From a secondary endosymbiont of Heteropsylla cubana (lineage in GTDB: Bacteria; Pseudomonadota; Gammaproteobacteria; Enterobacterales; Enterobacteriaceae): a stretch of 64,000 nt of DNA. The first letter of the stretch is position 1. Each line of letters starts with the position of its first letter. The stretch covers positions 434,001 to 498,000 of the forward strand of contig NC_018420.1 of assembly GCF_000287355.1 (NCBI RefSeq). Reading direction: 5' to 3'. Below, one piece after another: positions 22,598-24,613 of this stretch. Under the pieces are notes generated by a model that was not told where the DNA came from, did not search any database, and saw only the letters and a program-made list of their open reading frames with translations. The translations under genes and the position numbers were made by a program.

Positions 22598-22846
22598 ATG
22601 GTAAAAATTCGTTTAGCGCGCGGTGGAGCAAAAAAACGGCCATTTTATCAAATAGTTGTAACCGATAGTCGTAATGCACGCGATGGTCGTTTTATTGAAC
22701 GTATTGGTTTTTTTAACCCAATCGCAATGGGTCAAGCTCCAGGTATAAGTTTTAAGCTTAATCGACTTCAGTATTGGCTTATGCAAGGTGCAAATATTTC
22801 TAAACGTGTTGCAACTTTAATTAAAGAGTCAAAGAAAAGAGTGTAA
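22598..22846 (+). CDS. rpsP: 30S ribosomal protein S16
   Basis: S16 is an essential assembly protein of the small ribosomal subunit. The 82 residues match the E. coli length and contain [39 protein letters not shown] and the C-terminal [20 protein letters not shown] site lies 7 nt before the ATG. It opens the conserved rpsP-rimM-trmD-rplS operon, with rimM beginning 19 nt after its stop. Confidence 0.98.
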
Positions 22847-22865: not shown

Positions 22866-23414
22866 ATGAGTAAGAAACTTTATGTATCGTCCCCACCTAA
22901 GCAAGTCACCATAGGAAAAACAGGGTCAGCTTATGGAATTAATGGGTGGATTCGAGTCTTTTCTTTTACCGAAAAAGACATAAGTATCTTTGATTATCAA
23001 CCTTGGATTCTTCAAAAATCAAATTTTTGTCACGTGATGAATTTAGAAAACTGGAAACATCATAATCAAGGCTTTATAGTTAAAGTTAAAAACATTGATG
23101 ATAGAGATGCGGCTAGAATGTTAACTAACTATAAAATTATCATTGATTCTTCGAATCTACCTGTTTTAGATAAAGGTGAATATTACTGGAATGATCTTCT
23201 TGGTTGTCAAGTTATAAATTTACTCGGAAATCAATTAGGTAAGGTGGTTTCTATCATAGAAACAGGATCGAATGATGTTTTAGTAGTACAAGATAACTTA
23301 AAAGATGTTTTTAGTATGCAGAAGCAATTAATTCCATTCCTACCTAATAAGGTAATTAAGAGTATTGATCTTAACAAGAAAATTATTAATGTTGAATGGA
23401 ATTTTAATGTTTAA
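22866..23414 (+). CDS. rimM: 16S rRNA processing protein RimM
   Basis: RimM helps mature the 3' domain of 16S rRNA and binds S19. The 182 residues equal the family length. The N-terminal barrel contains [18 protein letters not shown] and YQPWILQK, and the C-terminal PRC-barrel contains [24 protein letters not shown] and [15 protein letters not shown]. It is the second gene of the rpsP operon, 32 nt ahead of trmD. Nothing looks broken, though it is more diverged than its ribosomal-protein neighbours. Confidence 0.96.
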
Positions 23415-23446: not shown

Positions 23447-24190
23447 ATGTGGATTGGGATTATCAGTTTGTTCCCTGAGATGTTCCGTGCTATTACCGAT
23501 TACGGAATAACTGGTCGCGCAGTAAAAAATAGTTTGTTAGTTTTAGAGTTTTGGAATCCACGGGATTTTGCTCTAAATAAGTATCGTGTGGTAGATGATC
23601 ACCCTTATGGGGGTGGTTCTGGTATGATTATGATGTTTCAGCCATTACGAGATGCGATTCATGAAGCAAAAAATATAGCAGGGAAAGGAATAAAGGTAAT
23701 TTATTTGTCTCCTCAAGGACGTAAACTCGACCAGGAAGGTGTAGCTAAGTTAGCTTCTAATTCGAAAATGATTTTGGTTTGCGGACGTTATAAAGGTATT
23801 GATGAGCGTTTAATTACTACAGAGATTAACGAAGAATGGTCGATTGGTGATTATATTCTTAGTGGTGGTGAGTTGGCAGCAATGGTTTTAATTGATTCAA
23901 TATCTCGACTAATTTCAGGAGTATTAGGTAATAACGATTCTTCATCGGAAGATTCGTTTAGTAAAGGATTATTAGATTGTCCACACTATACTCGACCCGG
24001 TGTTTTTTCCAACATTGAGGTTCCTAGAATTCTTCTATCCGGCGATCATAAAAAGATTCGTTTTTGGCGTATGAAACAATCTTTAGGGCGTACTTGGTTA
24101 AGAAGGCCAGAATTGCTTAAAAGTCTAATATTAACGAAAGAGCAAATAACCTTATTAACTGAGTTTCAGGGGGAGTATCAGAATGAATAA
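23447..24190 (+). CDS. trmD: tRNA (guanine37-N1)-methyltransferase TrmD, Glu116 replaced by Lys
   Basis: TrmD makes m1G37 in tRNAs with G36-G37, preventing +1 frameshifting; it is essential in E. coli. The 247 residues begin [20 protein letters not shown] and carry the SAM-binding trefoil-knot segments [13 protein letters not shown] (86-98), [14 protein letters not shown] and [18 protein letters not shown]. Numbering is collinear with E. coli. Arg154 (SISR) and Asp169 (SEDS) are kept, but position 116, Glu in RYEG, is Lys here (RYKG; AAA for GAA). Glu116 is a conserved active-site residue in this family. The tail is about 8 residues shorter than in E. coli. It is third in the operon and preceded by an AGGAGG ribosome site. 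Confidence 0.96.
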
Positions 24191-24265: not shown

Positions 24266-24613
24266 ATGAGTAGAATAATTCAACAGATTGAGAAAGAGCA
24301 GATGAAAATAAACATCCCGGGTTTTCGCCCAGGTGATTCTGTAGAAGTTAAGGTATGGGTTGTTGAAGGTAACAAAAAACGTCTTCAGGCATTTGAGGGG
24401 GTAGTTATCGCTATTCGTAATCGTGGATTAAATTCTGCATTTACTCTTCGTAAGATGTCTAACGGTGAAGGTGTAGAGCGGGTGTTTCAGACACACTCTC
24501 CGCTCGTTGAGAGTATTAAGATAAAACGTTGTGGTGCGGTTCGTCAGGCGAAATTGTACTACCTACGTGAACGTACTGGAAAAGCGGCACGCATTAAAGA
24601 GCGTCTTAATTAA
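24266..24613 (+). CDS. rplS: 50S ribosomal protein L19
   Basis: L19 sits at the subunit interface of the large ribosomal subunit. The 115 residues match E. coli exactly in length, with [55 protein letters not shown] and the end [18 protein letters not shown]. It is the last gene of the rpsP operon, 75 nt after trmD, and is followed by a terminator. Confidence 0.98.

Follow-up and report, generated by a model that had tools for sequence, protein, structure and literature searches.

The trmD gene of the analysed stretch of DNA (the window, 64,000 bases corresponding to bases 434001-498000 of a single-contig genome of 1,121,596 bases, 1.12 Mb) encodes a TrmD with Lys at position 116, where E. 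coli-type TrmD has Glu, and, judged by comparison of sequences, the gene most likely specifies a functioning Lys-type TrmD on which the demand is relaxed. The original prediction, which had presented Lys116 as a departure from a conserved catalytic Glu, was right about the observation and wrong about its rarity.

The gene (23447-24190, plus strand) is an intact open reading frame of 247 aa with an ATG start, and its product is assigned to tRNA (guanosine(37)-N1)-methyltransferase by two NCBIfam equivalog models, TIGR00088 (333.5 bits; cut-off 195) and NF000648 (305.8 bits; cut-off 220). It was the only match in the 1,121,596-base genome, where no second trmD was found. The open reading frame listing shows two frames upstream (22598-22846 and 22866-23414, plus strand), which we take to be rpsP and rimM from the usual operon rpsP-rimM-trmD-rplS, and one downstream (24266-24613, plus strand), presumably rplS. 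The window as a whole (1-64000) holds 27 open reading frames of at least 100 aa at a G+C content of 22-34% per 4 kb, and thus has the look of an eroding genome.

The alignment to E. coli TrmD (1p9p) is gap-free over residues 1-245, as had been claimed, and that to H. influenzae TrmD is likewise gap-free. The CGRYEGIDER motif of E. coli reads [10 protein letters not shown] in the window, and codon 116 (23792-23794, plus strand) is AAA, confirming Lys at this position by sequence and alignment. Both other active-site residues named in the original prediction are kept, the catalytic Arg154 as CGA (23906-23908, plus strand) and the proton acceptor Asp169 as GAT (23951-23953, plus strand). When near-invariant columns are defined as the 70 columns at least 98% constant in larger genomes, the window TrmD keeps 64 of them and differs from larger relatives at six (P58S, E116K, D128N, V137I, P157S, and A166S); R154, D169, D50 and S165 are all kept. 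Codon 58 (TCT, Ser; 23618-23620, plus strand) specifies Pro in 72/72 larger relatives and is statistically tied to Lys/Arg116, as described below. Codon 157 (TCA, Ser; 23915-23917, plus strand) specifies Pro in all 71 larger relatives that could be read here, and among the 77 symbionts without Glu116 the window TrmD is alone in lacking this Pro (76/77 have it). TrmD is a SPOUT-fold enzyme with a deep knot and an active site shared across the dimer. An AlphaFold2 model, built from 17 aligned sequences as a monomer and hence without the dimer-shared site, SAM or Mg2+, reached a mean pLDDT of 79.5 and a pTM of 0.63, with loops 53-60 and 174-183 below a pLDDT of 50; its best 50 matches in the PDB were all TrmD, at a TM score of only about 0.6 and an rmsd of about 14, i.e., with poor overall superposition.

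Among relatives, the exchange of residue 116 is tied to genome reduction. We defined reduced genomes as those of the same family of at most 1.8 Mb (120 genomes, 118 with a TrmD), and residue 116 was Lys in 57, Glu in 41, Gln in 11, Arg in 5, Ser in 3 and Asn in 1 of these 118 TrmDs, i.e., other than Glu in 77, whereas Glu116 was found in 72/72 larger relatives. The latter are the TrmD-bearing genomes of the order outside the reduced list, which include G080 (1.7 Mb, of another family) and fragments in G028, G087, and G093; the counts leave out repeated loci in G047 and G038 as well as the second G087 fragment. Since codon 116 is GAA (62) or GAG (10) in all 72 larger relatives, the step from GAA to AAA requires a single G-to-A change, as originally proposed. 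In the reduced genomes the codon is AAA (54), GAA (40) or CAA (11), and otherwise AGA, AAG, AGT, AAT, GAG, or CGT. A scan of 392 genomes of the same family with a motif demanding Lys, Arg, Gln, Asn, Ser or His at 116 matched 75, every one of which belongs to the 120 genomes up to 1.8 Mb, with no match in the 272 genomes above that size. When each genus of the family was represented by a single genome, residues other than Glu116 occurred in 13/22 reduced compared to 0/37 larger genomes. In genus g133 (about 0.3 Mb), an in-frame TGA is present in trmD (G323) or in proS (G250, G384, and G140), and TGA is perhaps read as an amino acid there.

Column 116 was replaced in 65% of the symbionts (77/118), compared to a median of 4.2% over the 70 near-invariant columns, and among the least diverged symbiont TrmDs (n = 42, with at most 8% of other columns changed) it was the most replaced column of all (25/42). 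AT-biased mutation alone is insufficient to account for this, because the other eight near-invariant acidic columns were replaced in only 0-21% of symbionts, with E130, E142, and D119 changed in at most one of the 118 reduced-genome TrmDs. On the other hand, columns 166 (76%) and 219 (70%) were replaced more often than 116 overall, and D169 was changed in 25/118 (to Glu in 17, to Asn in 6 and to Phe and Ile in one each), indicating that the pattern is partly one of general relaxation. On a tree of the prolyl-tRNA synthetase ProRS, built quickly from one gene with a simple model and leaving out the trait itself (TrmD), residue 116 changed between Glu and non-Glu at least 18 times, compared to 31-41 times in 20 shuffles of the labels; the state of this residue is thus inherited in part and has also switched on many occasions. 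Both Glu116 and other residues occur within several genera.

Residue 58 lies in a loop whose E. coli sequence is YGGGPGM. Pro58 was lost in 42 of 62 Lys/Arg116 symbionts compared to 8 of 51 Glu/Gln116 symbionts (Fisher p 2e-8, kinship ignored; the pooling of Lys with Arg and of Glu with Gln was chosen after a first look at the counts). On 12 supported independent pairs, a mean of 5.6 pairs agreed and 0.4 opposed (median p 0.06, range 0.008-0.73), suggesting that Lys/Arg116 goes with loss of Pro58, an association that is weak once kinship is allowed for. Symbionts with Gln116 kept Pro58 in 10/11 cases, showing that loss of Glu116 does not require a change at 58. Residues 168, 177, and 205 were also considered as partners; they were tied to non-Glu116 when kinship was ignored and, among the columns listed, were unconvincing on independent pairs.

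Lys116 reaches far beyond these symbionts. A motif scan of the genome collection demanding a Lys codon returned at least 120 loci, and the 120 listed are all TrmD with Lys116 by tblastn. Going by record titles, approximately 105 of the 120 Lys116 loci listed belong to Bacteroidota, and the remainder include KSB1, Ignavibacteriae, Gemmatimonadota, Krumholzibacteriia, Calditrichia, Neomarinimicrobiota, and Omnitrophota; among these 120, R154 and D169 were kept in 117/117 readable loci, and residue 58 was Ala, Ser, Gly or Val rather than Pro in 112. Together with the association of residues 58 and 116 in the symbionts, this suggests that Lys116 tends to come as part of a recognisable pair and not as random damage. 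Of 296 genomes sampled across the phylum to which a Prevotella record belongs, 151 contained a match to a motif allowing Glu, Lys, Gln, Arg or Gly at 116 and 145 did not; the 150 matches listed all had Lys (119 AAA, 31 AAG). With these and the 57/118 reduced-genome relatives, the notion that Lys116 is rare across the family fails, and the description of Glu116 as conserved holds for the larger relatives and not for the TrmD family as a whole. Because two Lys116 TrmDs, of Sinomicrobium (L064) and Prevotella (L005), pass the same equivalog models as the window protein, Glu116 was not counted as defining TrmD. Lys is accordingly common in TrmDs that, as far as their sequences tell, would be active, an outcome that the original prediction had itself set against its claim. 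The record L015 (CP034120.1, titled Glaciecola amylolytica) encodes a Lys116 TrmD 41% identical to that of the window; this title may be mistaken, and the Leu tRNA motifs of this genome resemble those of Bacteroidota records.

A PDB search with the Sinomicrobium protein matched 27 sequences, of which the best five all have Glu at 116. Published accounts call Glu116 "highly conserved among TrmD orthologues" (PMC12751012) and the equivalent Glu "strictly conserved" (PMC11187310). Among the literature matches listed, including those for Bacteroidetes, endosymbionts and Buchnera, there was no earlier description of Lys116 in TrmD, nor did we find kinetic data for E116 mutants or an activity measurement for any Lys116 TrmD; the Lys of Bacteroidota and the repeated loss of Glu116 in reduced genomes thus seem to be undescribed within that literature.

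Glu116, R154, and D169 have been named as active-site residues of TrmD (PMC1829167), with D169 the likely proton acceptor and R154 a stabiliser (PMC5372744). The enzyme requires Mg2+, located in a negatively charged pocket and bending SAM (PMC9508554, PMC12471008), and Glu116 may belong to this acidic pocket. Substitutions next to residue 116 serve as a yardstick: in E. coli, growth suffered little from Y115A and to an intermediate degree from G117N (PMC8643618). The essentiality of trmD in E. coli, as stated in the original prediction, has to be qualified, since nonsense and R154A strains are reported to grow, if slowly (PMC8643618). From the residues, their distribution, their repeated changes and the association of 58 with 116, we infer that the enzyme is active, and a structural reason can be suggested. 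Methyl transfer itself would proceed without need of Glu116, with Asp169 taking the N1 proton of G37 and Arg154 steadying the base. Some pressure would keep Glu116 fixed in free-living gammaproteobacteria; in reduced-genome lineages this pressure would be relaxed, and site 116 would move to Lys, mostly by GAA to AAA, or to Gln, Arg, Ser or Asn. Lys or Arg at 116 would be better accepted once Pro58 has been replaced, as by Ser58 in the window TrmD, and Bacteroidota seem to have settled on the similar pair of Lys116 and Ala58 as their normal state. Since Lys116 is widespread in a different phylum and has been acquired repeatedly by reduced-genome relatives, trmD of the window probably encodes a functional variant and is not a broken gene. 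Of the options offered in the original prediction, the best supported is an enzyme that does without this carboxylate. We therefore lean towards a working, perhaps slower, Lys-type TrmD in which Glu116 would be dispensable. Among the points against this reading are the published descriptions of the Glu as conserved, the changes P157S and D128N at near-invariant columns of the window TrmD, the weakness of the 58-116 association under kinship, the share of general relaxation in the pattern, and the tRNAs discussed next, which fit a weaker enzyme as well.

A second option offered was that the tRNA partners have adapted, and this was borne out in part. The window's genome has 38 tRNA genes, in which six of the tRNA classes bearing m1G37 in E. 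coli are represented (with two E. coli records and PMC8643618 as the yardstick for G37). G37 is kept in four of these six expected substrates, tRNA-Pro(UGG), tRNA-Pro(GGG), tRNA-Leu(GAG), and tRNA-Leu(CAG), whereas A37 replaces the G37 of E. coli in tRNA-Arg(CCG) (CTCCGAA vs. CTCCGGA; L325:1501-1574, minus strand) and in tRNA-Leu(UAG) (TTTAGAT vs. TTTAGGT; L311:1815-1898, minus strand). The retention of G37 in both tRNA-Pro genes and in two of the three tRNA-Leu genes that read CUN codons speaks for a working enzyme. It is possible, though we hold it to be clearly the less likely case, that the Lys116 enzyme is clearly impaired and is tolerated because a slowly growing cell with a smaller set of substrate tRNAs depends less on m1G37, with these two tRNAs having escaped through a change from G37 to A37. 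Such an escape would be consistent with E. coli, where loss of m1G37 harms charging and decoding by tRNA-Arg(CCG) (PMC8384417), and where laboratory-evolved trmD mutants gained extra Arg(CCG) tRNAs with A37 (PMC8643618). It would also be consistent with the other symbionts, as among the matches listed from a search confined to 80 of the 120 reduced genomes (with classes transcribed by hand) A37 was found in tRNA-Arg(CCG) in 37/55 and in tRNA-Leu(UAG) in 6/61 readable genomes, five of the latter six having a residue other than Glu116. However, A37 was not significantly tied to residue 116 across these symbionts (Fisher p 0.26 and 0.20), and symbionts with Glu116 also showed A37 in tRNA-Arg (16/27). 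Furthermore, in the 21 genomes of Lys116 records, the tRNA-like Leu(UAG) and Leu(GAG) rows, as judged by eye and with many chance matches, mostly end in G37; A or T stands at the end of a few rows, of which some resemble Leu(CAG). In the Lys116 genomes L045 and L049 (Dyadobacter; G440 and G443), a tRNA-Leu(CAG)-like motif ends in A37, not G37.

An impaired enzyme might also have left its mark on ProRS, at the suppressor sites altered in laboratory-evolved E. coli trmD mutants. Among the 30 symbionts taken first, these sites were changed in 11 of 16 without Glu116 compared to 4 of 14 with Glu116, and alleles identical to those of the laboratory occur, such as E514V in G047. In the controls, which covered 104 of the 120 reduced genomes and 30 larger ones, the rate of change at these sites did not exceed that of randomly chosen conserved ones (P 0.19 for the four invariant and 0.39 for the six near-invariant in larger genomes), and they showed no link to residue 116 after divergence was allowed for (p 0.61 over 104 symbionts). 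What remains in favour of impairment is the least diverged quarter, in which the mean change at the suppressor sites was 0.14 without Glu116 (n = 11) compared to 0.03 with Glu116 (n = 15), the other three quarters showing no steady direction. ProRS compensation as a general link to residue 116 was thus rejected. In several reduced genomes (L472, L477, L479-L481, L483, and L484), the ProRS is about 400 residues long (open frames of 397-416 aa) and the middle of the family profile is unmatched; this part is probably the editing domain.

We consider it unlikely, and offer it as speculation, that Lys or Arg at 116 replaces the catalytic Mg2+ by placing a positive charge in the acidic pocket that holds the SAM-bending ion. 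Still less likely, in our view, is that trmD of the window is on its way to loss and that its product no longer methylates, although all six changes at near-invariant columns would fit this, two of the 120 reduced genomes (G138 and G301) gave no trmD match, a few others have the gene in pieces or with a stop, and E. coli can live without m1G37 (PMC8643618). Speaking against loss are the intact frame, the 64/70 near-invariant columns that are kept, the predicted model, which matches TrmD entries best, and G37 in both tRNA-Pro genes. A sequencing or assembly error at codon 116 is highly improbable, because Lys116 is found in 57/118 reduced genomes with TrmD; it also recurs in the Bacteroidota sample and comes together with Ser58 in the window TrmD.

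TrmD is an antibiotic target, and an inhibitor paper of 2025 reports an ionic contact with Glu116 (PMC12751012). If Lys116 enzymes work, as we favour, such contacts would not be transferable to bacteria with Lys116, above all Bacteroidota, and the active-site trio of E116, R154, and D169 would shrink to two. The reason for the Mg2+ need of TrmD is called unclear in a review (PMC9508554), and Lys-type TrmDs offer a natural set of variants for asking why a methyltransferase needs this ion. If Lys/Arg116 did stand in for Mg2+, TrmDs that need no metal would have evolved independently in Bacteroidota and in many symbionts with reduced genomes, and m1G37 would be uncoupled from the cellular Mg2+ level. 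The wider pattern, in which a described active-site Glu is Lys in sampled Bacteroidota and has been lost repeatedly in reduced genomes, is worth testing.

Compared to the E. coli and H. influenzae enzymes (1p9p and 4yvi), the window TrmD has R154, D169, S165, and D50 in common, but Lys116, Ser58, and Ser157 in place of Glu116, Pro58, and Pro157. The reduced-genome relatives with Lys116 are of the same family, share the residue and often have Ser58 (19) or Gly58 (7), yet on the ProRS tree they represent repeated separate changes and not one ancestor. With the Lys-type TrmDs of Bacteroidota and other phyla, the window TrmD shares Lys116, a mostly non-Pro residue at 58 and the kept R154 and D169, and it is 42% identical to the TrmD of Sinomicrobium. 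In contrast, the 120 Lys116 loci listed mostly have His114 (115), Ala or Ser at 177 (96) and Val or Ile at 180 (94), where the window TrmD has Arg, Asp, and His, respectively.
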